Source of the DNA: a virus
Length of the DNA: 64,000 nucleotides
IMG/VR virus record: IMGVR_UViG_3300042305_001773
Location: 62,001-126,000 of that record
Strand: one strand, 5' to 3'
Shown: positions 5,986-44,256 of the stretch, in pieces
How positions within the stretch are numbered: position 1 is the first letter of the stretch
Layout: each line of letters begins with the position of its first letter
Notes under the pieces: model-generated
Database searches by the model: none
What the model was told of the DNA's origin: nothing
Seen by the model: the letters and a program-made list of their open reading frames with translations, nothing else
Position numbers and translations under genes: made by a program

Positions 5986-6005
5986 ATGACACCTACAAGT
6001 CGCTC

Positions 6006-6034
6006 ATAATAATCGGTAATGTTGAGTTACGCAA
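6006..6034 (-). promoter_or_regulatory. Possible sigma-70-like promoter
   Basis: On the minus strand TTGCGT is followed after 17 nt by TATTAT, a 5-of-6 match to the -10 consensus. The -35 match is weak. It lies in the 76-nt gap before the 118-residue protein gene, where a promoter would serve the structural set 3798-5985. Confidence 0.35.
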
Positions 6035-6061
6035 TACGCGATATTTGACTAATGCCGCGCA

Positions 6062-8602
6062 TTAACTAAATAAAATTGACGGCCAAATAGCCACTGGGCC
6101 TGTGGGGCCTGTAGGGCCAGATGGGCCGCCGGATGGCCCTGTTGGACCAACCGGTCCGGTTGCGCCTGTTTCACCAAACGGACCTGTTGGCCCGCTCGCG
6201 CCTGTCGGACCGGTGACGCCAGTCGGTCCAGTTGTTCCCTGCGGACCTGTTGGTCCAGTTGGGCCTTCAACACCTGTCGCGCCATCTGGTCCAATGGGCC
6301 CAGTCGCGCCCTCGGGGCCGTCTGGTCCGGTTGCGCCTTGTGCCGCTAACACCGGCACGCCACCGATTAAAATAACATCTTGGTACTCAGTCGATTCAAC
6401 GGTTGGCGCTGGACCTGTCGGGCCTGTTGGGCCATCCGGGCCAGAGGCGCCCGTCGGTCCTGTTGCGCCCTGTGCCGCAGCAACAGGAACGCCGCCGATT
6501 AAAATAACATCAGGTTCTTCTGTTGCTTCTACAGTAGGCGCGGGGCCGGTAGGTCCGCTTGGCCCGCGCGGGCCAACTTGTCCGCGAAGTCCTGTAGGTC
6601 CTTCTGGTCCTGACGGCCCGGACGGACCGACGGGCCCCGTTGGTCCGGTCGCGCCTTGTGCAGCAACAACAGGGACGCCGCCGATTAACAAAACGTCCGG
6701 CTCTTCAGTCGCTTCAACCAGCGGAGCCGGCCCTGTCGGGCCAGTTGCGCCGTCCGCGCCAGTTGGACCATCGGCACCCGTTGCGCCGGCTTCGCCGTTT
6801 GGTCCTTGTACGCCGTTTAAACCGCGCTGGCCTGTTAAACCTCTGGGGCCAGTCGAACCAGTCGCGCCCTGTACAGCGACAATCGGCACGCCGCCAATTA
6901 AAACAACTTCAGGAAACTCTGTCGGCTCTACAAGCGGCGGCGGACCGGCCGGGCCGGTTGGACCTGACGGCCCGGATGGCCCGCTCGGGCCGAGAGGGCC
7001 TTGTATACCCTGCGGGCCTTGCAACCCAATAACACCCTGTATACCGGTCGCGCCTTGTGGTCCGGGCGTGCCTTGTATGCCTTGTATACCTGTCGCGCCC
7101 GTCGCGCCAAGCGAGCCAGTAACACCTGTCGCACCTTGCGGGCCGCTTGCGCCTGTTGGACCCTGAATACCGGTTGGGCCGGTGGGGCCTTCTGGTCCAG
7201 TAGGCCCTATTACACCAGTTGCGCCAATCTCTCCTTGCGGTCCCGTTGGTCCGGTAGCACCCGGCGGGCCGACAACACGACCAATGTTTTGCCACGTTGT
7301 TCCGGTCCACGTATACGCAACGCCTTCAGCGGCGTTCACAGGGAGATCTTCGTCTGTTAACGCGTCTACGCCGATGATCCACGTATCGCCGATCACGGGC
7401 GTCCCAGCAGGCGGCCAGCTTTGCGTCGTTCCGTAAAACCGAACACCTACACCTGTTGCGCCGGTTGTACCAACCGGACCCGTCGCGCCCGTTGCGCCCG
7501 GATCGCCTTGCGGCCCGTCGTCGCCAACGTCGCCCTGCGGCCCTTGCGGTCCAGTCGCGCCCTGCGGACCAGTTGCGCCGTCAATACCGTTTATTCCGTT
7601 TGTGCCGGCGACGCCCGTCGCACCTTGCGGCCCGCTCGCGCCTGTAGGGCCGGCAATGCCTGTGGCGCCAAGTTCGCCTTGTGGTCCTGTCGGACCTTGC
7701 GTGCCTGTGGCACCAGTCGGGCCTGCGTCTCCAGTTAGACCGACGTTACCCTGCGGGCCAGTGGCACCTTGTATTCCTGTAGCGCCAGTCGGCCCCTCGA
7801 CACCAGTCGCTCCGACGGTGCCTTGTAAACCCTGCGGCCCTGACAGACCTTGTATACCTTGTGGCCCTTGCGGACCCGATAAACCTTGTAAGCCCTGTGG
7901 GCCTGTCGGACCCGGCAAACCCGTCGCACCAGTCGCGCCAGCGGGTCCTGTTAAACCCTGTGTGCCTGTCGGGCCGGGCTCGCCAGTCAAACCAGTCGCA
8001 CCAGTCGCACCGAGCGATCCAGTCGCACCAGTAGCTCCGAAAGCGCCCGTCGGGCCTTGTATACCAGCTGAGCCGGCGAACCCGCGCGGGCCTGTCTCAC
8101 CTTGCGGCCCCGTCGCGCCTGTTGCACCGCTGCTGCCTTGTGCGCCGCTAGCGCCAGTCGCGCCGGCCGGACCTGTGGCGCCAGTCGGGCCGCGAATACC
8201 AGTTGCGCCCGTCGCGCCACTGATGCCAGAGACACCAGCAGCGCCTTGCAGGCCAGTAGCGCCTGTGGGGCCTGCCGCGCCGGCTAGACCCGGCACACCA
8301 GTGGCGCCGGATTCGCCGGCAGGGCCAGCGACACCCGTTGCGCCGCGAGCCCCAGTTGGACCCATGGCGCCCACCATACCCGCGGAACCTTGCGGGCCGG
8401 TAGCGCCCGCAGGGCCGGTCACGCCGGTAGCGCCCCGAACACCAGTTGCACCTTGCGAGACGAGATTCAGCGCGGCCAGCAGATTGCCGACCGTTGTCTT
8501 TTTAGTGGTAGGAAGATCTGCCTGCTGATCAACGATTGCTATTAAATCGTCGGGGCCCGGTATTGGTTTACTGGGCAGGTCAGATATGCGCTTTTTAGCC
8601 AT
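6062..8602 (-). CDS. Collagen-like fibre protein (large)
   Basis: The 846-residue protein starts with a roughly 50-residue head ([20 protein letters not shown]) ending in the lysine-rich TTKKTTVG segment. Two long stretches of Gly-X-Y triplets follow, dominated by GATG, GPTG and GPQG. Collagen-like tracts of this kind form trimeric triple helices in phage fibres. Around residues 400-460 a non-collagen module with [13 protein letters not shown] interrupts them. In the last third, four copies of a short module around VILIGGVP alternate with triplets. The C-terminus ends in a short hydrophobic tail. A shorter paralogue is encoded at 23571-24416. AGGGA precedes the ATG. A surface or tail fibre role is inferred from the repeats and the neighbours. 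Confidence 0.85.
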
Positions 8603-8657
8603 CGTGCTATCCCTGCAGACAGAATGCCTGCCCTATAAAATAGCATATTTCGGCTAA

Positions 8658-8921
8658 TCAGTCGTTGTCCCGCGACTCAATCTTTTCGAACAATTTGTTT
8701 AGCCGATAATCGCTGGAATAACCCGAGTAAGTGCCGCGTAAAACACGCGACAGACTCGGGCTGCGCCGCGGATGAAACCGATAGCGACGAAACCGCAGGA
8801 TCGATTTGTGCCGATAGGGCATTTTCGGAAGTTTGTTATACCAGTAGATTTTCCGCGCCGCCCAATAACCAATAGCGCCGACAACGCAACCAGATAAAAA
8901 ACAGGCAATCAGCGGAGTCAT
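8658..8921 (-). CDS. Small basic membrane protein
   Basis: This 87-residue protein has an N-terminal hydrophobic helix (about residues 4-22, with a cysteine and small residues) followed by a strongly basic, tyrosine- and arginine-rich tail. GAGGGA precedes the ATG. No family is recognised. It lies between another tiny membrane protein (8942-9088) and the collagen-like gene. The placement of two membrane proteins in the middle of the fibre locus could suggest a role in the host envelope late in infection, such as lysis or surface change, but no motif supports a specific function. Confidence 0.6.
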   Translation of the reverse strand: MTPLIACFLSGCVVGAIGYWAARKIYWYNKLPKMPYRHKSILRFRRYRFHPRRSPSLSRVLRGTYSGYSSDYRLNKLFEKIESRDND

Positions 8922-8941
8922 GGTTTCCCTCGACGGTTTAG

Positions 8942-9088
8942 TTATTTAGCCGATAACTGGTACATAGCCACATTGCTGACGGCGTAACAGAAGAACGCCA
9001 ACCCGAGCCACGGATTATTTTTCCAACACTGCTCGGCGGCGGCATATGCGTAAATCGCCGACACCACTAGAAGCAACCAGCCGCTCAT
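8942..9088 (-). CDS. 48-residue two-helix membrane protein
   Basis: A short open frame starting MSGWLLLVVSAIYAYAAAEQ and ending MYQLSAK encodes a 48-residue protein with two hydrophobic helices (about 3-18 and 27-43) separated by a polar turn (EQCWKNNPW). It fills most of the gap between the terminator at 9099-9145 and the gene at 8658-8921. The Shine-Dalgarno is weak. Size and topology would fit a holin-like or exclusion protein, but there is no sequence proof. Lying just behind a terminator, it would depend on read-through or on its own promoter. Confidence 0.5.
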   Translation of the reverse strand: MSGWLLLVVSAIYAYAAAEQCWKNNPWLGLAFFCYAVSNVAMYQLSAK

Positions 9089-9098
9089 ATCACCACTT

Positions 9099-9145
9099 AA
9101 AAAAAGACCCGCCGAGTGAGCATCGTTGAGAGGCCCGGCGGGTTT
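9099..9145 (-). terminator. Strong intrinsic terminator
   Basis: On the minus strand an ACCCGCCG/CGGCGGGT stem, extended by A-T pairs, closes a loop of about 20 nt and is followed by a run of seven T. It ends the transcript of the 124-residue protein gene at 9168-9542. Confidence 0.85.
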
Positions 9146-9167
9146 GCTGCGTTAAATTCAAAGCAAC

Positions 9168-9542
9168 TCAGGCAGTCGGCGGTGTCGGCTGTACGGACGG
9201 GGGAATAGCCGGGGCCGGAGGCGGTGTGATTGTCACAGTGCCGTCAGCGTTGTACGTGAACTGCCCAACCATAGCTGCGCCTTCTTGAATCGCTTCGGGC
9301 CGAACTTCAGCGATTAAGGCGCCGAGCTTGGCGTGCAGTCGAAACACTTCGACAGCATCTGTTCCAAGTGCCGAGGCGATTTGCGAGGGGGACGCCTGCG
9401 GGTTACGCCAAAACTGCTTGGCGCCCTGATTAAACGCCGTCACCATGCTTTGAAACGTGGTGCGCGCTTGCTGCTTGATCTGGTTCGCTTGGCGTTGAGC
9501 CGGCGTGAGTTCGTTGACGACTGGGGTATCGAGAATGCTCAT
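9168..9542 (-). CDS. Conserved phage protein, single-gene unit
   Basis: The 124-residue protein has a helical N-terminal two thirds (NELTPAQRQANQIKQQART, then AFNQGAKQFWRNPQASP and ALGTDAVEVFRLHAKLGALI) and a proline-rich tail of about 25 residues. I recall similar small proteins in large phages as proteins of unknown function near fibre genes; this is memory, not a search. A good promoter lies 25 nt upstream, GGAG precedes the ATG and a strong terminator follows, so the gene forms its own transcription unit inside the fibre locus. This suggests it is needed in larger amounts than its neighbours. Confidence 0.7.
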   Translation of the reverse strand: MSILDTPVVNELTPAQRQANQIKQQARTTFQSMVTAFNQGAKQFWRNPQASPSQIASALGTDAVEVFRLHAKLGALIAEVRPEAIQEGAAMVGQFTYNADGTVTITPPPAPAIPPSVQPTPPTA

Positions 9543-9566
9543 GAGTTTGCTCCATTAGGTGTTATC

Positions 9567-9595
9567 AGTATACCTGCCAACACAAGTTTGCTCAA
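9567..9595 (-). promoter_or_regulatory. Sigma-70-like promoter for the 124-residue gene
   Basis: On the minus strand TTGAGC is followed by exactly 17 nt and TATACT, a 5-of-6 match to the -10 box. It fills the 56-nt gap after the arylsulfotransferase-fold gene and directly precedes the gene at 9168-9542. Confidence 0.65.
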
Positions 9596-9598
9596 CCG

Positions 9599-11872
9599 CT
9601 ACACAATGGTTGGGACGCGCCCGGCAGTAGTGCGCAAATAATTGAGATTGAAGAAATCTGGTCGAACCTTGATGGCGCGATACCACACGTTTGGTAGTTG
9701 CATTTCAAATACAACACCCTGATTCACGCCAGTCGTCGAAAAGTTAAATTCTACGGTATTTGGGTTGTCCGCGTTTAAAAGCAACGTGCCTGAATACGTT
9801 GTGTCATTTGCTTTCAAAAACGTATACGACCCGCAGCAGGGCGTGTTGCCGTACGGCGATGCGCCGTGCGCCCGAACAATCGCCAGAGAATTCGCAAGAT
9901 CTATTTCGTATACGACGCCGCGGTGCGGGCGACTAGAGCACGTCTGATTGTCTGAAATAGAGACGATATCGTTGCCGGGTGTCAGCGGCGTAAAATCTAC
10001 GTGCCAGCGTGCGTCGTGTTGCGCGTCAGTGCCGTTGTATTGACTACCAGATACCGTAGGCTCACCTTGCGGCGTTAACCATTTAGTATTCTGCGTCATA
10101 TTTTGTTTGATAACAGGCGCAAGCGGGCCGGCGTGACAGTAACCAGTACCAGAGATAATCCAAATGATATCTTTTGTCTCGTAGTCAATAGCGAACACTG
10201 CGCCGTTGTGCCGGCAGCTGACCACGATATTGCCGGTTACAGGATTGACGTCGACAGAATTCAGGTGGAAGTAGTCTGAATACGTGGTGTTGAAGTAATC
10301 GTCACTCCACCATTCCCATACGATCTGGCCCTGTGGGTTTTGTTCTTGGATATAAAAGCCGGTGGCGTCATATGACTCGCACAAGATGTTGCCCTTGCGC
10401 GCTCCGGGCCCCTTTACGGCGTGGGATTCGTGAATTTCCCATGTGTGAAAACCGCCGCGCGTGTCGGGGTTAATCATCGTATAGGGCTTGGCCGTTAAAT
10501 CGTTCAAACCGATATTGATGTCCCAGCGCGGCGCGGTGTTTGTAGTGCCGTTGGTCATTAGTTTGTTTTTGTCCCACCCGGCGTGCAAACTGACAACTTC
10601 TGCCAGTGAACTGTCGTTGTATGTATACCAAACAGGCACGGCGTTTGAATTGTAAACTGCCATATACGCGCCAACGGGCGCCGCAATGTAGTAGCCCGGA
10701 ACATACGCGTTTGTTTTTGTAGAGATGACGGGTAACGCCGGAAAGTCGCTCGGGAGAATGCGTACGAAATAACTCTGCGCGCCAATTTTGATGCGCAGCG
10801 CTTTATTGACCGTCGCTGTACCTGTGACCGCGGTGCCGCCATTGATGGTGACAGAATAATTGCGCGCAGATGAGCTGTAGAAATCTGTACCCGACCAGAC
10901 AACGTAATCCTGAATTGCCGGATTGAAAGCCGGCTCCATGTCGTTGCCGTCCACAGTAACCGCGAGGCTCGTTACTGTGGCGTTCGACGGAATCTCGACG
11001 AACATGTCCGAGAACAGAGGCTCCTCAGAGATCAATTCCGTAGAAAGAACAGTCGCAGCCCACTGCACCTGATGCGCTGTTGGACCAGTGACCGTGATTG
11101 CAAGCGCTTTGTTTACGCCGTCGGCAGTGACTTCAACGCCAGAGTCTTCCGGCCAGTCCGCGGCAACTACCTCGGCCACGGGAACACCGGACAGACTGAT
11201 ATTGTTAGCATAATCCCTGTAAATGCTGCCGCGGATCGTCCACGCCGCGGAAGTCGTAGCGGACAGGTCGTACGCGGATACTTTGACTTCAAACGCCCAT
11301 GCGGCTCCGGGCGCCAGCGTCAAATATCCAGCCGTACCGTTAATGTACATGCGGGTTGGCGTGTCGTTTTCGGTCGTTGCACGCAGCGTGTACACCGAAA
11401 ATTGTGCGTCACCCGGCGCAAAGAAACTGCCCGCCGACAAAGCCAGTTGAGATTCTTTGGCAGCCACCGCGTGCTTGCCCGCGGCAATGCTATTTAAACC
11501 GCCGGCTGTGTTGTTCGCACCGCCCAGCACAACAGAATTGACGCCGCTAGCTGTGTTGTCTTGTCCGCCCACAACCGCTGACTTCGCGCCAGACGCCGTA
11601 TTATTGCCGCCGCCTAGCGTGGCGGCATTTAGGGCGCTAACGGTGTTGTTCGCGCCGCCACCGGCAAAACCGTCTGTGCCGGTGACCTCGTTATTGGTGC
11701 CGGGGAGTTCGGCGCCGGTCGCGGAGTAGGCCAGTTGGTTCCACGGAGTGATACCGTCGCCATACTTGATCTTGCCCGTGTCGATCTCAAGACACGGTTC
11801 GCCCGCCGCAAGAACTTCGTTTTGATCAGCAAGATAACTTGCCGTTCCTCTTTTAATTCTTATTTCTATCAT
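9599..11872 (-). CDS. Fibre-like protein with arylsulfotransferase-type propeller
   Basis: The 757-residue protein begins with a head domain found on phage fibres (IKRGTASYLADQNEVLAAGE, resembling the N-terminus of major tropism determinants). Next come four or five YadA-head-like repeats (GGANNTASG type, residues about 70-130), a linker, and a cadherin-like strand domain ending FVRILPSDFP. From about 380 to 740 it has the signatures of the arylsulfotransferase family: FHLNSVDVNPVTGNIVVSCR, IVWEWWSDD and QHDARWHVDF, with RGVVYEID near the end. In the bacterial enzyme this fold is a six-bladed propeller with catalytic histidines; conserved His residues are seen here, but activity is unproven. 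No signal peptide is present. A paralogue lies at 20839-23559. Confidence 0.82.
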   Translation of the reverse strand: MIEIRIKRGTASYLADQNEVLAAGEPCLEIDTGKIKYGDGITPWNQLAYSATGAELPGTNNEVTGTDGFAGGGANNTVSALNAATLGGGNNTASGAKSAVVGGQDNTASGVNSVVLGGANNTAGGLNSIAAGKHAVAAKESQLALSAGSFFAPGDAQFSVYTLRATTENDTPTRMYINGTAGYLTLAPGAAWAFEVKVSAYDLSATTSAAWTIRGSIYRDYANNISLSGVPVAEVVAADWPEDSGVEVTADGVNKALAITVTGPTAHQVQWAATVLSTELISEEPLFSDMFVEIPSNATVTSLAVTVDGNDMEPAFNPAIQDYVVWSGTDFYSSSARNYSVTINGGTAVTGTATVNKALRIKIGAQSYFVRILPSDFPALPVISTKTNAYVPGYYIAAPVGAYMAVYNSNAVPVWYTYNDSSLAEVVSLHAGWDKNKLMTNGTTNTAPRWDINIGLNDLTAKPYTMINPDTRGGFHTWEIHESHAVKGPGARKGNILCESYDATGFYIQEQNPQGQIVWEWWSDDYFNTTYSDYFHLNSVDVNPVTGNIVVSCRHNGAVFAIDYETKDIIWIISGTGYCHAGPLAPVIKQNMTQNTKWLTPQGEPTVSGSQYNGTDAQHDARWHVDFTPLTPGNDIVSISDNQTCSSRPHRGVVYEIDLANSLAIVRAHGASPYGNTPCCGSYTFLKANDTTYSGTLLLNADNPNTVEFNFSTTGVNQGVVFEMQLPNVWYRAIKVRPDFFNLNYLRTTAGRVPTIV

Positions 11873-11878
11873 GTTTTA

Positions 11879-14800
11879 TTACGTGTTAAAGGGTGCTGTC
11901 GGGGGTGTGAAGTTGCCGGTGTAAAGTGCCGCGCCCTTCGTGATGCGCAGTTCATCAATGTAGCCGTTAAACCCGTACTGGGCCGTGTGCGCGTAACCGC
12001 CGATCGTCGGCAAGTATGTGAGATTGTTGAAATCAAAAGCGCTATTTACCGGGTCCCCGCCAACACCGTCCAGATACAACCGCATGACGCCGTTGTGCCG
12101 ACACAGCGCAAAGTGCTGCCAAGTATTATTCGACACGGCCGGTCCCCACACATATGTGCCGGGATTTGCTGAGCCGTGATCGAGAAACAGATTGCCTTCA
12201 GAGATTTGCAATGCCAGATAGTTAAAACCGCTTTCGACTTGGCTGTAAATTGTGGTGCCCGGGTCTGGAGCAGTAGGATAAATCCAACCCTCGATTGTAA
12301 AATCTCCCGTACCATACGCGAACATCTCAGGATCTGTCGGTGTCACTTGAACGTTGTCGCCGTAACCCGTGAAATCGCCGCTTGCTCCGTCAAACTTGCT
12401 TTCCGTCGTGCTGATGGCTGCGTTGCCGTTTGACGTTACCGCGTGCGTGTTCGCGCTGCTGTCGGTGAACGTAGTACTACCGTTCGCGCCGTCCATGTGA
12501 AGAAGCAGCACTGTGTTGAATGGCGGCGGCGGCAAGCAGCGATTGATCAAACCACGCTCTAACGCAATCAGCGCGGCTTCGCCCAGCGCGTGGTCAAAGA
12601 TAACTATTTCCGCGATATCGCCGATCAGCGATTCGTTTGCCGCGAGCGAACCGCCGTGACCAATAAACAGGTCTCCGCCCTGTTTAGCTGCCATGTCCGC
12701 ATACAGCGTCGTAGAAACTTCTTCGCCGTTGACCCGGAGTTTCAGCAGTCCGTCAGCGTTAACGGTGTAGCTCAACAGCGTCCAGTCTAGCGGAAGTGTT
12801 GTCGGATACGCGCCGCACTCGTCATTGCCGTAATTACCGGTGCAAGAGGCGTTGTAGAACGTCAACCGATCGGACGGAGCATTGACGTTGATCGTAGCGC
12901 CGTCGAGCGAGTTGTAATCTAGTCCGCTGTCAGGCTGAAAACTCAAAATTCGCGCGTAGGCGTGGTCGTTGTTGGCTTGCTTGAACACCATAAACCCGCT
13001 GGAGTTCTTCAAGTTAAATTGATAACCCACGTCCAGCACGTTCGGGTCGCCGCTGAAGCGCACGACGTCCTGTCCGTTTGGCCCCTCGCCGACCGCCACA
13101 AACGGAGCCGGCGCATAGTCAGCCGGAGTCGCCGTACGGCCGTTTCCGCTCTTGTCAGCCCACGTAACAATCGTGCCGTTAACCTCGCCAATATCGCCCG
13201 TCGAGTCGAGCCACAGATCGCAGCCGGTGACGTCGGTCGGTGTGACGTCGGCTGTTGCGCGGAAAGGAGCAGTCGGCGGGGTGAAGTTGCTTGTGTAGAC
13301 AGCTGTGCTTTTAATGACACGCAGTTCGTCGATATAGCCATTCAACACCGCTGTGGACGGCGAATATCCACCGATGAGTGGCCTGTTAGTTGGGTTTACC
13401 TGATAATTGGTGCTGTCTATAAAGTCACTGCCGCTTTGAACGCCGTCAATAAACAATTTTGTGATACCGCCGCTTCTACAAACGGCGAGGTGATGCCACT
13501 GATTCGCCGTAATATTTGCAGACGCAGAAATGCGATCAGCCGCATTAACGTACCAACGGACATTCCCGTCAGAAATGTACCACGCGGGCGAATTGTTTTC
13601 ATCATAATTTCGCCATTCCATGATGTGCTGAGGTCCGGCCGTGCTATTCAAAAACACCCAGACCTCGACGGTAAAGTCGTCGGACCCAAACGCAAAATCA
13701 TTTGAACTTGCAACCACCAAAGTGCCGGCGCCGGCTAGTGCGAGACTCGCGCCGCCGAACTTGCTCTGTGCGGTGCTGATTTGAGCATTGCCGTTAGCGG
13801 TCACCGTCAACGCATTAGTAGACGAATCCGTAAACGTCGTACTTCCATCAGCTCCGTCAAAATGGAGGAGCAGGTCAGCGGTCGGGCCGGGAACAAACGG
13901 ATTCGGGAACGGAACCGTGGGCGGCGTGAAGTTTGCTGTATAGCGGGCGACGCCCTTTGTAATGCGGAGGTCGTCGATGTAGCAATCGGTTTCCGCAAGC
14001 TGATAGTTGATGGTAGACGCACCAATACTAATACGCGATGCTCCTGTTGGTATCACCGCAGATGTCGTCGTACCTTGCGAGACGCCATCTATGTAAAAAG
14101 TGCGCGTGCTACCGATCTTGGTAATTGCATAGTGATTCCAATAACCAAGAGCCGGGAATGTCACGCTGAACGGCGACGATGAACCGAAATAGTTCCAGTC
14201 AAGGGTTGAATTATTATTGATCAGCCCCCAAGTTTCCCCAGAGTTGTTTTCAAAACAAACGTAGCGATCATTTGGCTCCGTAGAGGTAAATCTCATCCAC
14301 CACTCAACTGTGTAGTCCGCGCTCTCTAGGTCAAAGTCGCCGTCTACCGTCAGGCAGTCGTCCGATTGCAGCAAAACGCTCGCCCCGCCGAACTTGCTCT
14401 GCGCTGTGCTGATGGCAGCGTTGCCGTAGTCGGTCACGGTATTCTGCAGGTACGAGTTGTCTGTAAATACAGCGCTGCCGTTTGCGCCGTCCATATGAAG
14501 CAGCAGCGTGACATTCTCGGCGTAAGGGTCGCCCGTTGGTTGCGTAGCCGGCGGGATGACCGGATCAGGAAGCGCCTTGGTCGGCGGATTGAACTCGGCG
14601 ATGTAACGCGCCACACCCTTCGTAATCCTGAAGTCGTCGATCAGGCCGTCGAGGTAGTAGTCGTCTTCGTTCGTCCAGCGCCGGCCAATCACGGCGGTTG
14701 TCTGCGTGCCGCCGTCCAGATTGATATTTGTATTCGCGGTCGCAACTTCGGCGCCGTTGATGTACATCTTCAGAACGCCGTCGAGCCGCACGAACGCGTA

Positions 14801-17800
14801 GTGCGCCCACGTGTTGTAGTACTCGGCGATGTTGGCCGACACGAATGTGAAATTATCCATGTCGTAGCAGAAGCCAAACATGTTCGTGTCGTCGCTGAAA
14901 CCGATCAGGTACGTGCCGGCTTCCTCTGCTGTCGACGCCGTGGAGAACACTGCAGAGTACTGAACATAACTCAGCTTGCCCCAGAACTCGACGGTAAAGT
15001 CGCCGTCGTCAAAGGCGAACTCGGGTGACATCGCGATCTCGCAGTGTCCGCCCGCAAACTCGCCGCTTGCGTTGCCGTACTTGATATCTTCAAGATTCAG
15101 GTAGGCGCTGCCCGTCGCCGCGACCTCGTGGTTGTGCTTGGACGTGTCGATGAACGTCGTGATCGGCCCAGTTCCGCCACCACCGCCGCCTGCGGCATCT
15201 GGAAAGGCCGCCGTGGGGGGCGTAAAGTTATCAGTGTAGCGCGCGACACCCTTGGTAACCCGCAGTTCGTCGATATAGCCGTCGAAGTTGTACGACGGGC
15301 TGTGGCCGTAACTCCCGACCTGCGGCGTGAACGTAGTGTTGGCGAAATCAAAAGTGCATGCCGCCGGCACGCCACCAACGCCGTCAACGTAAACAGTGGC
15401 CATCCCCTCCTTGCGGCATACCGCAATATGGTGCCACGTGTCGGCCGTTATCGAGCCGCCGTAGACATACGCGCCGGGATTTGAGTAGTTAAAAATAAAC
15501 TGGACTAGTCCGTTTTCGGTTCCAAGAACGCAATAATTGTTGCCCGATGTTGATTGGCCATAGATAACGTGCCAACTGCTTAAATCCGCGCTATTGACCC
15601 AGCACTCGATGGTGAAATCCTCTGTGCCGTAGGCGAAGTTCGCAGATGCGGGGGCGGTCAAGAACGAATTAGAACCGCCGTTAAAGTACCCGCTCGCGCT
15701 GCCGAACTTGATCTCCCCGGTAGAAACAACCGCGTCCCCGGTGGCGACGACGGCCAATGCGTTCGGCGACGAATCGACAAAGGTCGTGCCGTTATTCTCG
15801 CCGTCCATGTGGAGCAGCATCGAAACGTTGTTGAAGTACGGATCGACTCCGGGCGGAGGAACGAGCGTGATCGTGGGGTTTAAGAACGGCGCCGCTGGCG
15901 GATTGAAGTTTTCCGTGTACAGCGCTGTGCCTTTTATGATGCGGAGTTCGTCGATGTGGCCTTTGGAAAAACTTGCAGCGGAAGCTAAGTTCGCATCCGC
16001 TCCGATGTATGTTGGGCCGGGGTTGGTAAGCAAACTACCCGCGTATGTAAATGACAAAACTTGAAGGCCGTCGATAAAAAGACGGAAATTATCTCCAGCT
16101 CGGGTCGCCGCCACATGGTGCCACTGCGCCGGCGCGTATGTTCCTGCCAAGGTAGTGTCCAGCCAACCAGCCCCGGTACTACACAACAGCCTGAACGCGC
16201 TCACACCAGCATACGCACTAATACGCACTTGTGCTGCAGCGGCGCTTTCGCCGACCGTGATCAAAGTATGCGAACCGTCGCCGACGCCACTGCTGTCGCT
16301 CTCTGGTCGCCACCACGTTTCCACAGTCCAGTCACCGCTGCTTAAGTCTATTGCCGCAGTTGGCGCTATCGTGAGTGCAGACGCGGCGTCAAAGTATGCG
16401 CTCGCCCCGCCGAACCTGCTCTGCGCCGTGGATATGGCCGCGTTGCCGGCGCGAGTCACGGCCAACTGATTTTTGCCGCTGTCCGTAAACGTCGTGCTGC
16501 CGTTTGCGCCGTCAAAGTGCAGTAGAAGATCCGGGGCGGGCGTAGACGTTGTCGCAAAGGGCTCCGTCGGCGGCGTGAAGTTAGCTGTATAAACGGCCGC
16601 TCCTTTGACGATACGGACGTCGTCGATATAGCCTTCTACGGTGTATGGTGCTTGTGACGTTCCAATAGTTAACATGTCTGTGGGGTTTAGTACGTACGAA
16701 ACAGAATTGGGCGCGCTGGCGATTTCCGCTCCGTCCGCGAAAAACCGCAGCGTTCCGCTGTGGCGGGCTACTGCTACGTGCACCCACTGCTCAACCGGGC
16801 AGACCCAGCCGCTGCTAGAAAGATCCCAGCCGGTGCAGCCGACACCCATACGAACCTCTGTGGCGCAATTCACGCTCCACGTGCCACATTGTGTTGCGCC
16901 GCCAAATATAGAGGTGTCGCTGGTGTTGGAAAGACGCATCCACCACTCTGCAGTGAAGTCGCCGGTTCCGAAATCAAGCGCAGAAGAATAAGGTATTGAA
17001 AGATATCCACCCCCGCTGCGCGACATAAACAACGACGAGCCGCCAAACTTGCTTTGTGCCGTGGATATGGCGGCGTCACCGTTCGCCGTCACAGTCAGCC
17101 CGTTCTTGCCGCTGTCCGTGAACGTCGTGCTGCCATTTGCGCCATCAAAGTGGAGCAGCAGCGCGGGACCGGCTGGCGGGTTCGGGAACGGCAGGGTGGG
17201 CGGCATGAAGTTGGCGGTGTAGAGGGCCGCGCCCTTCGTGATGCGGAGTTCGTCGATGTAGCCGTTAAAAGTCCTGTAGTTCTCGCCATCCGCCCCTATT
17301 CTGAGATCAGAACTCACCAACGCCGGCCGTGCGCTGTCGTTCACTGTGCCGATTAGTGTGCCATTGGAGAAGGCGTACCAATCGTCGCCGGAACGGCAGA
17401 GAGCCAAATGATACCAGTCCCCAGCAACGGGACTCCACTGACCAAAAACTATATCTCCAGCCGAGCCCAGATGAAAGCCAAGAGCGCTGCCCGGAATCAC
17501 TGGTGCGTTCCAATACAAACCCCATTTCGGGTTGCCCCCGCCGCCGCCAGACTGACCACATATGCTGGTAGGCTGTTCGGTATCTGTAAAATTCAACCAC
17601 ATTTCTATAGTGAAGTCACCGGCGTTCACAAAGTCCCACAAGGAGGAGTCCGGGATAGACAACCAAGAGCCACTGCCGTTGAAATACCCGCTCGACCCGC
17701 CAAACTTGCTCTCTGTTGTAGAAAGCGTCGCGCCATTCGCTGTAACAGTCAGCCCGTTCTCGCCGCTGTCTACGAACGAAGCGCCGTCGAAATGCAGAAG

Positions 17801-20800
17801 CAGCGCCGTCTCAACCGTCGGCATCGTGACGACCTTGGTGTAGCCGAGCGGAAACGAGGCTGTGGGCGGCGTGAAGGCAGCCGTATAACGCGCAAGTCCC
17901 TGCGTGATGCGCAGTTCGTCGATATAAAATTCTTGCGGACCAAAATCAGCGGCCTGTTGACCCACTTGTACTGTGGCGTATTTGGGCAAGTTAAAAGCCG
18001 TGCCCGAATACACCTGCACGCCGTTTACATACATCTTAAATTCGTTTGCGTCTGCGTTGTTGACCCACGCAAGATGCGCCCAAGAACCATATGTATATGG
18101 CGTCGGCGTACTCGGAAACGAATCTGCGGACGGCGTATTTCCCGCGCCCAGCGCTCGCATATAAATAGAATTATCTGCGACTGCGACGTCCATAATCCAG
18201 CGATTTGGAAAATTTTGAGAACCAGCGCCGAGAACTTGTTGGTTATTTACAACGCTCGGGCCGGCGCTTAAAAACCAGCACTCTACAGTCCAACTGCCGC
18301 TAGAGAGATCTACGCCCGGGAAACCGTCAAGATAGTCTGTGTCCGTGTCGGGGCATTTGAGGCTTGCGCCGCCGAACTTACTCTGCGCAGTACTGATTTG
18401 AACCGTTCCTTCAGCCGTAGCCGATCCAGCTAGAGGAGAAGAGTCAACAATATTGGTGCTACCGTTTGCGCCGTCCATTTTGAGGAGCAGCGAGACCTTG
18501 TCGAAGTCGGGGTCGAGGAGCGACTGGCCGGCTTGATTGGGAAACTCTGCTGTGGGCGGCGTGAAGTTGGCCGTGTAGCGCGCGACTCCCTTCGTGATGC
18601 GCAGGTCGTCGATGTACATTTCGGATGTGAAACCGATGTTGTTGGGTTGCATGGCCCCGATCAGCAATCGGTACGGGCCAGCCAAGGGCGCGATGGCGGA
18701 AGAGCCGACGCTCGTGCCGTCCACATAAATCGTGACGGTGCCGTTCGCTCTTGCCGCCGCGATATGAACCCACTGCTCTCGCGGAACCACGCCGCCTATG
18801 GCGCATTGCTGTGTCCCTTCGTCCCACCTCAAGGCGTCGTCAGATCCGATCCATAAATGCAATCCGTAAGGAACATTAATGGTATTAGAAAGATTCAAGA
18901 CCGTAGCGTCGCCAACGGATGACGGACGCCAAACCCACGCTTCAAGCGTCCAATCCCCTTCGGACATGTCCTCGAAGTCCGAAAAATCTCCACTATCCAG
19001 ATAGCCGTTGCCCAAAGACAACGAAGAGCCGCCGAACTTGCTCTGTGCGGTTGAAATAGCAGCACTACCGTTTGCGGTTACAGTCACCGCGTTCGCGCTG
19101 CTGTCGGTGAACGTAGTACTACCGTTCGCGCCGTCCATGTGAAGAAGCAGCGACACGTCGTTGAAATACGGGTCACCGTTACCGCCATCAGTGCCGACCC
19201 CTGCGTTCGCGGGTTTGTCCATATGGAGCAAGAGTGAAACGTTGTCGCCGTATACGTCAGCCGTGAAGTCTTCCTTGCCGAGTTCGTAGTTGTAGAGCAT
19301 CTGGACGTCCTGCAACGACAAGACGCGATCCCAGATACCAAGCTGATCTACCACACACGCGAGGTCGTTCTGCGTCGCCGTCTGGTCGCCAATACCGACG
19401 CGCAGCGGAATGTTTCCCGCACTGAACGACCCGAGCGTGGCGACCTGCGCGGCCTGTGAACCGTTGAGATACAACGTAAGCGTGTTGGCGGTGGCGCTGT
19501 ATACCAGCACAACGTGATGCCAGAGGTTGGCTTCTAGATCCGGCACGACAACGGTGTAAATATCGTCGTCTGTGGCAATACGACCAAACACGGCGTTGGT
19601 GTCAGACCCGTCGTCGCCGAAGCCAAGTTCGACCTGCCCAGAAGCGTTGCCGGCTGCCCAGTTCTGCACGAGCACAGACCGGCCCCCAGCCATGGACGCT
19701 GCTTTAAACCACGCCGAGATAGCGAACGAACCGTCGAGCGCAAAATCGCTGGGCGCCTGTAGGTAGTTGTTTCCGCCAGTAAACTCCGCGGCGTTTTCAA
19801 TGACACCCGAGTCAAAACCAACGGTGCCGGTCGGGGTCAGCGGTACTTCGGCGGCGGTGATATCTAAACGAGCGCCGGTTTCTTCGTTCAACGGCCAGAA
19901 CGCTTTCATGCCCTCACACAGCGGATGCACAGCGCTTACAACAGACCAGCGCTCCATCATGTAATTTTCCGCGTCCAACAAATCGGCCGCGGACAAGACG
20001 CTGTCGTACAAGACAATCTCTGCAATGTCGCCGCTGTAGTTGTCATCGGCAAAGTCGCTGCGCGAGCCGCCGAGCGAAAGGTGCGTCATCGGCGGGACGG
20101 TAAACCCCTCGACTGACACCGTGTTTAAACCATTTAACCGCGTAGACAAACCGGCCAGACTAAACTGCAATGTGTAGACAACCGGTACAAGATTATCGAC
20201 TGCCTGTGTTGCGCTATATTCACCGTCAAAAAATACGCCAAACTCTCCGCCTGTTTCTGTACCGCACAACACAAGCTCTGTGTTGTTGTTAGCCGTATAT
20301 GCCGCAATAACTTTACCGTCGGCACTCGCGCCCCGTCGGCGTAGAGCAACGAGCAGTGTAAACTCCTCGGGCAGGTCCAGCTTGCCGATCATCGCGTCGT
20401 TCTCACCGTCGAACGTCACGACATCTTGATTTGCAAGTTGATTGGCAACAGTCGGTCGGTTTGCTTTATTCGACTGCACGAACTTTGCGTCAGAGTCGGA
20501 AGCGTCCTCCCACAGCGACACGCGGTTGGCAACGCGATGCACGTAGTCAACATTGTCGGCGTCAAGCCACAGTTTCAGGCCGGGTAACGTAGGCGGACTG
20601 AACGTACCGGGTACGGCCGGAACAGCGCCGGCAGTGAACTCACCGCCGTCAACAACTTCCAGCGCGGGATTCGAATATGGTAGGTCGCGCCACGGAGTTA
20701 CACCGTTGCCGTACTTCACCTTATTTGTGTCAATCTCAAGACCCGGCTCGCCGCGGAGCAGAACGGGGTTGAGAGCGTACAGAGCCGCAGCAGTACCGCG

Positions 20801-20824
20801 CTTAAATTGAATATTTGATGGCAT
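11879..20824 (-). CDS. Giant LamG-array adhesin or fibre protein (2,981 residues)
   Basis: The protein begins with the same kind of fibre head (IQFKRGTAAALYALNPVLLR, GVTPWRDLPYS). It continues as a chain of 13 concanavalin/LamG-like jelly-roll modules of about 210-230 residues. Two are of the LWLDA...GDIAEIVLYD type (first and twelfth). One is a classical LamG (FWPLNEETG..., second). Ten are of the LLLHMDGANGSTTFTDSS...IDELRITKGVARYT...FTPPT type. A vestigial start of a module lies between modules 2 and 3. LamG domains usually bind sugars or proteins. No enzymatic motif, signal peptide or membrane helix is seen, so a particle-borne receptor-binding fibre is the best reading. Its arrangement between two paralogous propeller fibres is unusual. 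Confidence 0.87.
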   Translation of the reverse strand: MPSNIQFKRGTAAALYALNPVLLRGEPGLEIDTNKVKYGNGVTPWRDLPYSNPALEVVDGGEFTAGAVPAVPGTFSPPTLPGLKLWLDADNVDYVHRVANRVSLWEDASDSDAKFVQSNKANRPTVANQLANQDVVTFDGENDAMIGKLDLPEEFTLLVALRRRGASADGKVIAAYTANNNTELVLCGTETGGEFGVFFDGEYSATQAVDNLVPVVYTLQFSLAGLSTRLNGLNTVSVEGFTVPPMTHLSLGGSRSDFADDNYSGDIAEIVLYDSVLSAADLLDAENYMMERWSVVSAVHPLCEGMKAFWPLNEETGARLDITAAEVPLTPTGTVGFDSGVIENAAEFTGGNNYLQAPSDFALDGSFAISAWFKAASMAGGRSVLVQNWAAGNASGQVELGFGDDGSDTNAVFGRIATDDDIYTVVVPDLEANLWHHVVLVYSATANTLTLYLNGSQAAQVATLGSFSAGNIPLRVGIGDQTATQNDLACVVDQLGIWDRVLSLQDVQMLYNYELGKEDFTADVYGDNVSLLLHMDKPANAGVGTDGGNGDPYFNDVSLLLHMDGANGSTTFTDSSANAVTVTANGSAAISTAQSKFGGSSLSLGNGYLDSGDFSDFEDMSEGDWTLEAWVWRPSSVGDATVLNLSNTINVPYGLHLWIGSDDALRWDEGTQQCAIGGVVPREQWVHIAAARANGTVTIYVDGTSVGSSAIAPLAGPYRLLIGAMQPNNIGFTSEMYIDDLRITKGVARYTANFTPPTAEFPNQAGQSLLDPDFDKVSLLLKMDGANGSTNIVDSSPLAGSATAEGTVQISTAQSKFGGASLKCPDTDTDYLDGFPGVDLSSGSWTVECWFLSAGPSVVNNQQVLGAGSQNFPNRWIMDVAVADNSIYMRALGAGNTPSADSFPSTPTPYTYGSWAHLAWVNNADANEFKMYVNGVQVYSGTAFNLPKYATVQVGQQAADFGPQEFYIDELRITQGLARYTAAFTPPTASFPLGYTKVVTMPTVETALLLHFDGASFVDSGENGLTVTANGATLSTTESKFGGSSGYFNGSGSWLSIPDSSLWDFVNAGDFTIEMWLNFTDTEQPTSICGQSGGGGGNPKWGLYWNAPVIPGSALGFHLGSAGDIVFGQWSPVAGDWYHLALCRSGDDWYAFSNGTLIGTVNDSARPALVSSDLRIGADGENYRTFNGYIDELRITKGAALYTANFMPPTLPFPNPPAGPALLLHFDGANGSTTFTDSGKNGLTVTANGDAAISTAQSKFGGSSLFMSRSGGGYLSIPYSSALDFGTGDFTAEWWMRLSNTSDTSIFGGATQCGTWSVNCATEVRMGVGCTGWDLSSSGWVCPVEQWVHVAVARHSGTLRFFADGAEIASAPNSVSYVLNPTDMLTIGTSQAPYTVEGYIDDVRIVKGAAVYTANFTPPTEPFATTSTPAPDLLLHFDGANGSTTFTDSGKNQLAVTRAGNAAISTAQSRFGGASAYFDAASALTIAPTAAIDLSSGDWTVETWWRPESDSSGVGDGSHTLITVGESAAAAQVRISAYAGVSAFRLLCSTGAGWLDTTLAGTYAPAQWHHVAATRAGDNFRLFIDGLQVLSFTYAGSLLTNPGPTYIGADANLASAASFSKGHIDELRIIKGTALYTENFNPPAAPFLNPTITLVPPPGVDPYFNNVSMLLHMDGENNGTTFVDSSPNALAVVATGDAVVSTGEIKFGSASGYFNGGSNSFLTAPASANFAYGTEDFTIECWVNSADLSSWHVIYGQSTSGNNYCVLGTENGLVQFIFNYSNPGAYVYGGSITADTWHHIAVCRKEGMATVYVDGVGGVPAACTFDFANTTFTPQVGSYGHSPSYNFDGYIDELRVTKGVARYTDNFTPPTAAFPDAAGGGGGGTGPITTFIDTSKHNHEVAATGSAYLNLEDIKYGNASGEFAGGHCEIAMSPEFAFDDGDFTVEFWGKLSYVQYSAVFSTASTAEEAGTYLIGFSDDTNMFGFCYDMDNFTFVSANIAEYYNTWAHYAFVRLDGVLKMYINGAEVATANTNINLDGGTQTTAVIGRRWTNEDDYYLDGLIDDFRITKGVARYIAEFNPPTKALPDPVIPPATQPTGDPYAENVTLLLHMDGANGSAVFTDNSYLQNTVTDYGNAAISTAQSKFGGASVLLQSDDCLTVDGDFDLESADYTVEWWMRFTSTEPNDRYVCFENNSGETWGLINNNSTLDWNYFGSSSPFSVTFPALGYWNHYAITKIGSTRTFYIDGVSQGTTTSAVIPTGASRISIGASTINYQLAETDCYIDDLRITKGVARYTANFTPPTVPFPNPFVPGPTADLLLHFDGADGSTTFTDSSTNALTVTANGNAQISTAQSKFGGASLALAGAGTLVVASSNDFAFGSDDFTVEVWVFLNSTAGPQHIMEWRNYDENNSPAWYISDGNVRWYVNAADRISASANITANQWHHLAVCRSGGITKLFIDGVQSGSDFIDSTNYQVNPTNRPLIGGYSPSTAVLNGYIDELRVIKSTAVYTSNFTPPTAPFRATADVTPTDVTGCDLWLDSTGDIGEVNGTIVTWADKSGNGRTATPADYAPAPFVAVGEGPNGQDVVRFSGDPNVLDVGYQFNLKNSSGFMVFKQANNDHAYARILSFQPDSGLDYNSLDGATINVNAPSDRLTFYNASCTGNYGNDECGAYPTTLPLDWTLLSYTVNADGLLKLRVNGEEVSTTLYADMAAKQGGDLFIGHGGSLAANESLIGDIAEIVIFDHALGEAALIALERGLINRCLPPPPFNTVLLLHMDGANGSTTFTDSSANTHAVTSNGNAAISTTESKFDGASGDFTGYGDNVQVTPTDPEMFAYGTGDFTIEGWIYPTAPDPGTTIYSQVESGFNYLALQISEGNLFLDHGSANPGTYVWGPAVSNNTWQHFALCRHNGVMRLYLDGVGGDPVNSAFDFNNLTYLPTIGGYAHTAQYGFNGYIDELRITKGAALYTGNFTPPTAPFNT
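12449..12509. repeat. 61-nt exact repeat, copy A (last LamG module)
   Basis: These 61 bases, coding for the start of the thirteenth LamG module, are identical to 19091-19151 at the start of the third module, although the rest of the two modules differs. It is the longest exact match I found in the array by eye. Confidence 0.85.
19091..19151. repeat. 61-nt exact repeat, copy B (third LamG module)
   Basis: This is the partner of the repeat at 12449-12509, in the same orientation and reading frame, 6.6 kb apart. Direct in-frame repeats like this allow deletion or exchange of whole modules by recombination. Confidence 0.85.
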
Positions 20825-20838
20825 GATGTGCTACTGAG

Positions 20839-23559
20839 TTAGGATACGACTGTTATGGGCAAACCAGCGGTGGCACGCAGGTAATCAATGTCGAAATAGT
20901 CTTTAGAGACTTTCGTGATCCTATAGAGATCGCCGGGAAAGTCTACCGCAAAAATGACGCCCGTGGGAGAAGCGCCGTCGCCGGCGTCACCGTATTCGAC
21001 AAGCGGCGGGTGTTGCTGCGTGAAATTTAACACGTGGCTAAATGAGCCGTTATCGTGCAGCATGATTTGATAGCTGCCGAGGTAGCCGGACGTGCCGTTG
21101 GGGGCAAAAGCACTAGAACGGTGAATTGCGTGCTCGTTAGTCAGGTCAATTTCGTAAATAACGCCACGGGCAGCAGGCGAGTTTTCGCTATTTGGCCAGT
21201 ACGTTAAAGCACGCGTTGCCGTGATTGTACCCGTAGCCGTAACCGTACCCGTTGTCGCGACGTTATAGGTAAACGTGTTTGCGTTTACAACGGCGACAGA
21301 AAATACACCATTGAACACAGCCTCGTTTGCCCCGGTTACCTTCACATACGAGCCGTTTACAAAACCGTGCGCCGTTGCGGTACCCGTGACAAGATTGCCG
21401 TCCTGCGCAAGTGCCGTCACCGTTTTGGGCGAATTAGTGCTGCCGGCAAAAAACCCCGCTTGATTGTCAAATATTGCAACAACTTCGTTGCCCGGCGTAA
21501 GCGGATTTACATTAACAGCCCAGCGCGCATGATGCTGGCCTTCAGGGCCAAGATACTGGTAACCCTCTAGTTCCGGCTCGCCTTCAAGGGTCAGCCATTT
21601 GGCGTTATCCAACGTGTACTGGTTTGCCGTCTGCTGAATACCGCCCCACGGTTGTGACGCACCCTGAATCACCCACTTGACGTTTTTAGTCGCGCGCTCA
21701 ACGCAAACAATAGCTGAGCACTGCCGGCAGCTGAACAGCATGTCGCCTGTAACCGGGTGGATATCCACCGAGTTCATGTGGAAGAACGACGCGTTCCGCG
21801 CCAGCGTTGTCTGGTCAAACCTGTCGCTCGTCCACCACTCCCAGCCGATCGTGTTTTGCGGGGTCTGCTCTTGGACATAGACGCCGTACGCTTTGTCGGT
21901 CAGGGCTTGTGAGCCGGCGGTTGGCTGCGTGACGAACGTGTTGTAAAGAATATTGCCACGCTGTTGCGGCGGGCTCTTGATTTCTAAAAACTCGTGATTG
22001 CCAAAGTTGTATTGGTAGCTATTGCCGTTTCGAATAGCTGGCAAAAAGCTGAATTCTTTAGTGTCAATAGAGTCTTCGGTGATCGTCATCGAGAAGCGCG
22101 TACCTGTGCCGTTACGGCTGACGCCGATCTTGTTCCGGTCGTTGCCGTGCTGCGCTAAGTGCGGCGTGCCGGCGTTCTGTACGTACCACACCGGTACGCC
22201 GTTTTCGTCGTACACGATATTGTAGTTGTTGACATTAATGTCACGGCGGCTTGTCGTGATGTAGTAGCCGGGCACGTAGCCGGCTTGCGGCTGTGTTGTA
22301 ATCGTGCCGAGCGGCATATCGGACGGGAGCAGGCGGACATAGTAATCGTCTGTGCCGTTTGTTACGCGAATAAGCTTCCCGACCGAGCTAACACCCGGAT
22401 AAGCGACGCCGTTAACCGTCACTGTGTAGGTGACAGATGAGCCAGCCGCCACAGACGTCGTCAGAATGCCGTAGTCGCGGATTGCCGCGTTGAATGTCGG
22501 ATACAGCGTATTTGTGTTACCGACAATAGAAGCAGTAATTGTGTTAATTGCGCCGGTTACGTTCAACGTGACAAACGCCTCGTAGTTAATAGACGGTTGC
22601 GGAGGCGCCGAAATCGTGTACGTGTTCTCGCCGCCGCCGTACAGCGTTTGAACTTCGGCTGGTGTCAGCGCGCGATTCCAGACACCAAGGCAGTCGATAT
22701 CCGCTGACACAACGTTCGTGCGTCCGAGCATAAACTTGGCTGTGGCGTTCGTCGGGCCAGCGCCGCTAACGAGCACGGCAGCGGTTTGAACGCCGTTTTC
22801 ATAAATGCGCAGATAGTTTTGCGTCGTGTCGTGTACAAAGACAATGTGGCGCCACTGGGCATATGGTAACTCGGTGGCGGTGGCAACTGTTGTGTTTGCA
22901 GTCCCAACTTTCGGTAACCACGTGAGCTTGCCGTCGGGCGCAAAATAAATACGGGCCTGATCAGCTGCGCCGAAGCCGGCGATATTTACAAGCGGATATT
23001 CCGCCGCTGTGGCGCCAAGTAGCGTCCAGTACCCCGGCGAGGGTACGTAGCCAGCGGCGCCAATAAACGTGTGCATCCGCCACAGCTGCCCGTTGAGCGA
23101 AACCATATCGCCGGGGCCGTATGTAACGCCACCGTTATATGCGCCCTTAAAGCGCGTATCGACTTTGACCCACATCGCTAAAGTCTTATGTCCGACAAAA
23201 GCGTTATTTGCGTAATAGAAATTACGCTTTGCCAGCCGCAGTGCGCCGTCGAAACCCGACACTGTCTGCTCCGAAACTCCTTCATACAGCGTGACATTGC
23301 CGCCAGACACGTCATCGACACGCATGCTGTTTCGGTCAAACATCCAGAACGCCATCAATCCTTGGCGCAGCTGGTCATACTGTACTTCGCCGCCGTCGAC
23401 GCCGCCGGACGTCGTAAGGTCAACGACGGAACCGTCAGCTTTTTTCGTAAACAGCCGCCCGTCGGCGGTATTGATAGCTAATTCGCCGAGGGCGAGGTCG
23501 GCGGCTGTCGGTACGGCGCCGGCGTCGCCGCTGCGCTTGTGCTTAATAATGTTTGCCAT
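20839..23559 (-). CDS. LamG plus arylsulfotransferase-type fibre protein
   Basis: The 906-residue protein has a fibre head (IIKHKRSGDAGAVPTAADLA, GELAINTADGRLF). A LamG domain (about 65-310) follows. It is interrupted by a 45-residue segment with YNGGVTYGPGDMVSLNGQLW and PGYWTLLG, which looks like a CBM5/12-type chitin-binding fold. Next is a cadherin-like strand domain ending VRLLPSDMP, then the arylsulfotransferase-type propeller (FHMNSVDIHPVTGDMLFSCR, GWEWWTSDRF, GQHHARWAVN). The propeller is itself split by an insertion of about 70 residues rich in Thr and Val. The second signature is QHHAR where the paralogue at 9599-11872 has QHDAR. The role is probably receptor binding; catalysis is untested. 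Confidence 0.82.
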   Translation of the reverse strand: MANIIKHKRSGDAGAVPTAADLALGELAINTADGRLFTKKADGSVVDLTTSGGVDGGEVQYDQLRQGLMAFWMFDRNSMRVDDVSGGNVTLYEGVSEQTVSGFDGALRLAKRNFYYANNAFVGHKTLAMWVKVDTRFKGAYNGGVTYGPGDMVSLNGQLWRMHTFIGAAGYVPSPGYWTLLGATAAEYPLVNIAGFGAADQARIYFAPDGKLTWLPKVGTANTTVATATELPYAQWRHIVFVHDTTQNYLRIYENGVQTAAVLVSGAGPTNATAKFMLGRTNVVSADIDCLGVWNRALTPAEVQTLYGGGENTYTISAPPQPSINYEAFVTLNVTGAINTITASIVGNTNTLYPTFNAAIRDYGILTTSVAAGSSVTYTVTVNGVAYPGVSSVGKLIRVTNGTDDYYVRLLPSDMPLGTITTQPQAGYVPGYYITTSRRDINVNNYNIVYDENGVPVWYVQNAGTPHLAQHGNDRNKIGVSRNGTGTRFSMTITEDSIDTKEFSFLPAIRNGNSYQYNFGNHEFLEIKSPPQQRGNILYNTFVTQPTAGSQALTDKAYGVYVQEQTPQNTIGWEWWTSDRFDQTTLARNASFFHMNSVDIHPVTGDMLFSCRQCSAIVCVERATKNVKWVIQGASQPWGGIQQTANQYTLDNAKWLTLEGEPELEGYQYLGPEGQHHARWAVNVNPLTPGNEVVAIFDNQAGFFAGSTNSPKTVTALAQDGNLVTGTATAHGFVNGSYVKVTGANEAVFNGVFSVAVVNANTFTYNVATTGTVTATGTITATRALTYWPNSENSPAARGVIYEIDLTNEHAIHRSSAFAPNGTSGYLGSYQIMLHDNGSFSHVLNFTQQHPPLVEYGDAGDGASPTGVIFAVDFPGDLYRITKVSKDYFDIDYLRATAGLPITVVS

Positions 23560-23570
23560 GTGAGTACCTG

Positions 23571-24416
23571 TTAGTAAGCGCCGCCGTCGATAATAGAGTT
23601 GTTGTAAATAACGGTACCGCCGCCACCAAAATTAATTGGGGCATCATCGGCGGCCGAAAAAGTCATCGTGTTAGATACGGTTAATGTTTTTGTCGCGGCA
23701 ACAACTACGCCGGTGGCGTTTTCACCGGCAGGACCTTGCGGGCCGGTCGGGCCTTGTGCGCCAGTTGCACCAATCGCCCCTGTTTGCCCGTCGTTCCCCG
23801 CTGGACCCGCGGGGCCTTGTGGCCCAGTCGCACCTTCTACGCCGGCCGGACCTGTGCTGCCCTGCGGTCCGCGAATCGGGCCGACGTTGACCCAACTTGT
23901 GCCTGTCCAAACAACGCCGTCGCCGGGTAACGTGCCGACTGGCGCGTCGTTTGGCGCCGGATCGGCGATCAGCCACATATCACCTACATCTGGATTTTGC
24001 GCTGGCGGCCACGTAAGCGCCGTACCTTCAATCGTCACACCGGAACCGGCAGGACCTTGCGGGCCGGTGGCGCCAACAAGTCCTTGCGCACCAGTCGCGC
24101 CGGCGTCTCCAGCAGGTCCTTGCGGTCCCGTTGCCCCCTGTGCGCCAGCAGCGCCCTGTGCGCCGGGCTCGCCTTGAGGACCAGTAGCGCCCGTGTCGCC
24201 AGCAGGGCCTTGCGGGCCTGTAGCGCCGCGCGGGCCAGTCGGCCCTGTGGCGCCAGCTCCGCCCCCGCCACCGCCGTCTGTCAAACCGAGAATGGCCCCA
24301 ATCGTTGTGCGCTTTGTCGCCAGATTGTTCGGGTTTTGCGTATCAACAATCGGGACGATGTCGTTCAGCGTTGGTGTTTGTTTTTCAGGTAACGCTGAAA
24401 TACGTTTATTCGACAT
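23571..24416 (-). CDS. Collagen-like fibre protein (short)
   Basis: This 281-residue paralogue of the protein at 6062-8602 has the same kind of head ([20 protein letters not shown], ending TKRTTIG) and a glycine run. Two Gly-X-Y tracts ([20 protein letters not shown]) flank a 50-residue interruption with [16 protein letters not shown], which matches the interruption of the larger protein. The C-terminus is a small strand-rich cap ([19 protein letters not shown]), perhaps a trimerisation element. AGGTG precedes the ATG. It marks the upstream end of the fibre locus. Confidence 0.85.
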
Positions 24417-40779: not shown

Positions 40780-40797
40780 TCGGGCCTCCATGCCACA

Positions 40798-41361: not shown

Positions 41362-41363
41362 AG

Positions 41364-41745: not shown

Positions 41746-41749
41746 TTCT

Positions 41750-42456: not shown

Positions 42457-42472
42457 ATACCCTCCGTAAGGT

Positions 42473-44184: not shown

Positions 44185-44209
44185 AAATTCCCTTCTTGAT
44201 ATAAATACC

Positions 44210-44256
44210 CCGACCCCGGCGCGCACGCACTGAGGAAAACGTGACGCCGGGGTCGG
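44210..44256 (-). terminator. Long perfect hairpin, possible terminator
   Basis: CCGACCCCGGCG and CGCCGGGGTCGG form a perfect 12-bp stem with a 23-nt loop in the gap between the gene at 44267-45637 and recA. The following minus-strand sequence is only moderately T-rich (GGTATTTATAT), so it may cause partial termination or set mRNA processing, lowering recA relative to its upstream neighbour. Confidence 0.6.

Follow-up and report, generated by a model that had tools for sequence, protein, structure and literature searches.

Organisation of the locus

Five large open reading frames, P1 to P5, lie on the minus strand of the window, by which we mean the whole analysed stretch of 64,000 nucleotides (positions 62001-126000 in a virus record of 205,044 bases). 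Read from their frames and Pfam domains, the genes follow each other as collagen-like, arylsulfate sulfotransferase (ASST), LamG array, ASST and collagen-like, an order already described in an earlier note on this DNA (Table 1). The Pfam calls of Collagen, ASST and Laminin_G_3 in the five genes are all above the gathering cut-off. P5, P4, P3, P2 and a small gene, P0006, are transcribed in that order, with gaps of 6 to 56 bases within the run.

Table 1 Features of the fibre locus, with positions in the window and the evidence for each
Feature	Position	Strand	Evidence
P5, collagen-like, 281 aa, leading gene of the close-packed run	23571..24416	-	Pfam Collagen 61 bits
P4, 906 aa: gp37-type head, one LamG, ASST	20839..23559	-	Laminin_G_3 56 bits, Arylsulfotrans 43.4 bits
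P4 ASST half, residues 327-906; catalytic-type H522, H594, N596, R612, H676	20842..22581	-	Homology to P2; invariant residues
Beta-rich insert of the P4 propeller, following the DNQ motif, residues ~702-790	21190..21456	-	phrog_9998 E 2e-11 at 712-782; alignment gap
P3, 2981 aa: Mtd_N head, LamG array	11879..20824	-	Mtd_N 35.9 bits; Laminin_G_3 617.5 bits in 12 stretches
P2, 757 aa: Mtd_N head, beta-roll-like repeats, ASST	9599..11872	-	Mtd_N 35.2 bits, Arylsulfotrans 44.1 bits; weak LbR_Ice_bind
P2 ASST half, residues 289-757; catalytic-type H481, H536, N538, R554, H619	9602..11008	-	AlphaFold2 model, PDB fold matches, invariant residues
P0006, 124-aa ORF, last gene before the terminator	9168..9542	-	Weak phrog_7124; 98% identical in G001
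Intrinsic terminator, GC stem of 8 bp followed by 7 T	9143-9099	-	Read from sequence; RNA fold -18.8 kcal/mol, z -2.3
P1, collagen-like, 846 aa, separate unit	6062..8602	-	Pfam Collagen 293 bits

The terminator, whose long loop caused a simple scan to miss it, sets P1 apart from the run. P1 starts about 500 bases past it, with a second small ORF (8658-8921) in between; since both precede P1, the 18 kb do not form a single unit of five genes. A Pfam search with P0006 returned no match, and a scan for promoters and terminators found no more sites than in shuffled sequence. Two small ORFs between the terminator and P1 (48 aa, too short for the ORF list, and 87 aa; window 8658-9098) look membrane-associated by eye and possibly encode lysis or envelope proteins.

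The three central proteins begin with fibre heads, as the earlier note had proposed: Mtd_N in P2 and P3, and a T4 gp37-like head in P4, whose first ~60 residues match phrog_1699, a long tail fibre distal subunit (E 2e-12). Residues 3-111 of P2 also match a YadA-domain structural protein of cyanophage S-SM1. The module inserted in the P4 propeller is absent from P2-type and single-copy ASSTs in three alignments and may set acceptor choice.

Its gene content, which includes a tail-sheath-like protein, a baseplate wedge protein and a DNA replication set of its own, identifies the source as a large contractile-tailed phage. Among GenBank phages the sheath protein has weak relatives only, and a megablast of 9.3 kb of the window (39625-48882) against phages gave no match. 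The three central fibre genes lie about 80 kb away from the main tail module. Further collagen-like proteins, of 299 and 1534 aa, are found in that module (G000:C1:164884-170390, L027 4884-10390; G000 is the record of this phage). It also holds a run of proteins with similar N-termini (RYPL, SYPL, AYPF or RYPF; G000:C1:170305-176611, L027) that looks like a tandem paralogue series. Elsewhere in the genome, three adjacent proteins share a motif similar to MNAYEFGxxxG..EK at the N-terminus, which may be a joint targeting sequence or a leader that is cleaved off (G000:C1:34517-38286, L022).

Fold and predicted active site of the ASST halves

Both P2 and P4 score above the curated cut-off of PF05935, 24.2 bits (Table 1). 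The AlphaFold2 model of the P2 ASST half (mean pLDDT 84.3, pTM 0.86) consists of a beta-sandwich and a propeller. Its best nine fold matches in the PDB are all ASST-family sulfotransferases, namely EcAST entries and Streptomyces Cpz4, with E values from 8e-14 to 4e-11. The full-length model of P4 is too poor to use (pLDDT 47), so its fold is assigned by sequence homology.

In EcAST, the sulfuryl group is transferred by a ping-pong mechanism through transient sulfation of His436, with His252, His356, Asn358, Arg374 and Thr501 placed around the sulfuryl group (PMC13426309). A profile alignment to the EcAST structure 3ELQ puts phage H, N, R and H on His356, Asn358, Arg374 and His436, respectively; the equivalent of His252 is placed by alignment to the bacterial set only. 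None of the counterparts of these five residues varies among 16 phage ASSTs, which are 33-92% identical to P2, or among 13 bacterial sequences; for two of the five, the invariance is partly due to selection in the sequences added by later scans, which used an HxNS-containing pattern. Ten sequences from the first scan, whose patterns lay off the active site, already showed the same invariance. Given 54 invariant columns out of 469, the chance that all five named columns are invariant is 1.7e-5. The likely equivalent of Thr501, placed without the 3ELQ alignment, is S or G in the phage ASSTs and varies in the bacterial ones too. Altogether, the predicted intact sulfotransferase active site in both ASST fibres is the most important feature of the locus, and the earlier note did not discuss it.

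Between G000 and its near relative G001 (198 kb), the dN/dS ratio is 0.08 for P2 and 0.06 for P4. No strong diversifying selection was seen on either gene, and their synonymous divergence is like that of some neighbours.

A conserved trio with a variable centre

The conserved element is the central trio P4-P3-P2, in this order: a gp37-type head with LamG and ASST, an Mtd_N head with the LamG array, and an Mtd_N head with ASST. The same order occurs in at least four other uncultivated phage contigs (G001, G002, G003 and G008), and G012 has part of it; the trio is also carried by G006/L010, relatives that are nearly identical to this phage. In G008 a T4-type major head gene lies nearby and none of the window's neighbour genes surrounds the trio, whose phage background thus differs. 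No further phages came from a scan with P4 orthologues. One 7.9-kb contig with P4 and P3 homologues was binned in a proteobacterial MAG (L035, G012:C216); this is most likely phage DNA put in the wrong bin.

Of the three proteins, P3 diverges most between near relatives, at 48-56% identity compared with 84-91% for P4 and P2 and 91-100% for most flanking genes. Its array is also variable in length: counted with a profile built from P3's own units, P3 of this phage has 11 LamG units, two orthologues have 4 and 6, the nearly complete copy of G008 has 10, and that of G001 has more. Divergence and array length thus both vary as expected of a distal recognition region between close relatives.

P5 is 100% identical at the amino-acid level in G001, and in G003 its homologue, at the same place (L106 11722-11985), has 87 aa and no collagen repeats. 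Among the phages with the trio, P1 was seen only in the near relative G001, with 100% DNA identity. The block from 4257 to 8921 of the window, which includes P1, is 100% identical to G001, at the protein level throughout and at the DNA level in the two genes checked. In most other genes compared between G000 and G001, 12-65% of synonymous sites differ. The identical block points to recent exchange or a shared import; slow evolution of the collagen genes, which we had considered, is wrong, as the full DNA identity of the P1 block points to recent exchange instead.

Outside the trio, five phages carry a single ASST, fused to LamG, PA14/GLEYA or BppL_N baseplate-type domains. These fusions indicate that ASST has been paired with adhesin domains repeatedly. 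Two of the five have portal genes near the ASST, one of them with a major head gene close by as well.

Proposed function

Taken together, the fibre heads, the lectin folds and the intact enzyme centre suggest receptor-engaging enzymes. By analogy with known fibre enzymes, P4, P3 and P2 would form an enzyme-tipped and lectin-bearing set that engages the receptor and acts on sulfate decorations, a reading in which we infer virion location, catalysis, substrate and host, and to which we give an even chance. The N-terminal heads of the three proteins would dock on the particle, while the long, length-variable LamG array of P3 would bind the host surface. At their C-termini, P4 and P2 would each carry a complete PAPS-independent arylsulfate sulfotransferase unit, made of the beta-sandwich and a six-bladed propeller. 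With the fibre held on the glycan by its LamG domains, the ASST centre would bind a sulfate ester and pass the sulfuryl group to the histidine equivalent to EcAST His436, then to a hydroxyl acceptor. A surface decoration would be removed, moved or added in this way and the backbone left uncut, as deacetylase tailspikes do with acetyl groups. P5 would serve as a stalk or an adaptor whose collagen rod can expand, and P1 is probably a separate collagen fibre. The broader proposal of the earlier note, a multi-fibre receptor-binding system, gains support from the known head types, the variation in LamG array length and the conservation of the trio as a unit.

The strongest rival keeps the trio as a receptor-binding set and denies it turnover: the sulfate pocket of the propellers would have been kept to bind sulfated glycans or proteins of the host in the manner of a lectin. 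Propellers do serve other phage receptor-binding devices, one of which, from Staphylococcus phage Phi11 (5EFV), appears weakly among the fold matches. The insert of the P4 propeller lies next to the region of the active site, the likely equivalent of Thr501 is not conserved, and the invariant residues could serve sulfate binding without turnover. Against this stand the invariance of all five key catalytic positions, down to 33% identity to P2, and the strong purifying selection; we consider binding without catalysis rather unlikely, although it deserves to be taken seriously. It is quite improbable that the ASST proteins act off the particle, in or on the infected cell (for example by a surface change that excludes other phages), or that they decorate the head: the distance from the tail module would fit, as would the PHROGs labels of some LamG relatives (virion structural or baseplate wedge, with no defined place), whereas Mtd_N and gp37 heads are tail-fibre attachment types and related ASST proteins bear BppL_N baseplate domains.

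Returning to an active enzyme on the fibre, the more specific claim would be that in some contractile-tailed phages active PAPS-independent sulfotransferases tip two fibres that flank a lectin-array fibre, and that these phages use sulfate-ester chemistry on the host surface at adsorption. We hold it tentatively, at a little under an even chance. Most tail enzymes known to date cleave surface polysaccharides or remove their acetyl groups. If the claim is true, these proteins form a class of tail enzyme not described before, and a sulfotransferase fibre adds a new reaction to the phage entry step and points to sulfate decorations on environmental bacteria as phage receptors. A tblastn search (E<=1e-3) with P2 and P4 against 50,697 GenBank phage records found their head regions only, and no ASST half. 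Likewise, no ASST is named among the matches of a fold search in BFVD, a set of predicted viral structures, which gave propeller look-alikes only, and among the papers searched none was found that links arylsulfotransferase to a phage tail fibre. The sulfotransferase claim is directly testable with cheap chromogenic substrates.

Origin of the mirror order

The earlier note saw in the locus a mirror of paralogous pairs that looked as if fibre genes had been duplicated around a central adhesin. By domain content the order is indeed ABCBA, and the inner pair is homologous; it is not strictly a five-gene mirror, with P0006, the terminator and a small ORF between genes 1 and 2. Two pairs and a singleton fall into a mirror with the singleton at the centre in 2 of 30 orders (7%), so the symmetry alone is weak evidence.

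The homology within each pair is partial. In the inner one it covers the ASST halves only (P2 289-757 and P4 327-906; 33% identity over 458 aa, E 6.5e-61). The rest of the two proteins differs, and the head of P2 resembles that of P3 (57%), not that of P4. The outer, collagen-like pair has in common a 43-aa N-terminus (46%) and one module of ~55 aa that interrupts the collagen (42%, E 5e-8), the remainder being generic Gly-X-Y. The ~55-aa module is present in tail fibres of Klebsiella, Enterobacter and Cronobacter phages too; the collagens are not whole-gene duplicates.

On a tree rooted with the sampled bacterial ASSTs, the phage ASSTs form one clade (support 100/99). P2-types group with the single-copy ASST of G007 (96/91), a divergent copy of G008 branching first, and P4-types with the single-copy ASSTs of G004, G005, G009 and G011 (92/87). 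The grouping of P2 and P4 as one clade is rejected (AU p=0.029). The ASST halves of P2 and P4 thus appear to be old, separate lineages, a result that we regard as moderate and not final because of the long branches. The tree speaks in the same way against a recent duplication of the ASST genes, with caution for the long bacterial outgroup branches and the moderate support.

Growth by duplication around the central adhesin is therefore very unlikely. Besides the separate ASST lineages, the differing heads and the short modules of the collagens, P1 stands behind the terminator, outside the unit, and G002 and G003 lack it next to the trio. Inverted duplication is rejected outright, because the genes all share a strand and the mirror order could not arise in a single event. 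The symmetry is mostly incidental.

Comparison with known systems

The collagen-like P1 and P5 are ordinary members of the collagen-like phage fibres, with Gly-X-Y rods, a fibre N-terminus and an interrupting module as in Klebsiella, Enterobacter and Cronobacter fibres. The trio differs from its closest counterparts in what the heads carry. P2 and P3 have the same head as Mtd_N-headed tail proteins, such as Bordetella phage Mtd and cyanophage structural proteins, while their C-terminal cargo is ASST or a LamG array. P4 is like T4-type gp37 over its first ~60 residues; beyond the head no gp37 similarity was found, and ASST and LamG take its place.

Bacterial ASSTs (EcAST/AssT 3ELQ, Cpz4 9KF6, PF05935) resemble P2 in their beta-sandwich and propeller, and the phage ASSTs keep the counterparts of five of their residues. 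In contrast to the bacterial enzymes, the phage ones are fused to fibre heads and LamG and form a clade apart from the sampled bacterial ASSTs; the P4-type propeller has its insert. The likely Thr501 equivalent is S or G.

The closest parallel to the proposed logic, an enzyme at the fibre end that acts on a host glycan decoration, is found in deacetylases and SGNH-domain fibres. The tailspike gp63.1 of coliphage G7C deacetylates the O-antigen without cutting it, and its activity is needed to infect (PMC10743462); for SGNH-domain fibres of Klebsiella prophages, esterase activity was demonstrated (PMC13123978). The phage ASSTs would follow the same principle with a different fold and a different chemistry, the predicted reaction being sulfuryl transfer and not ester hydrolysis.
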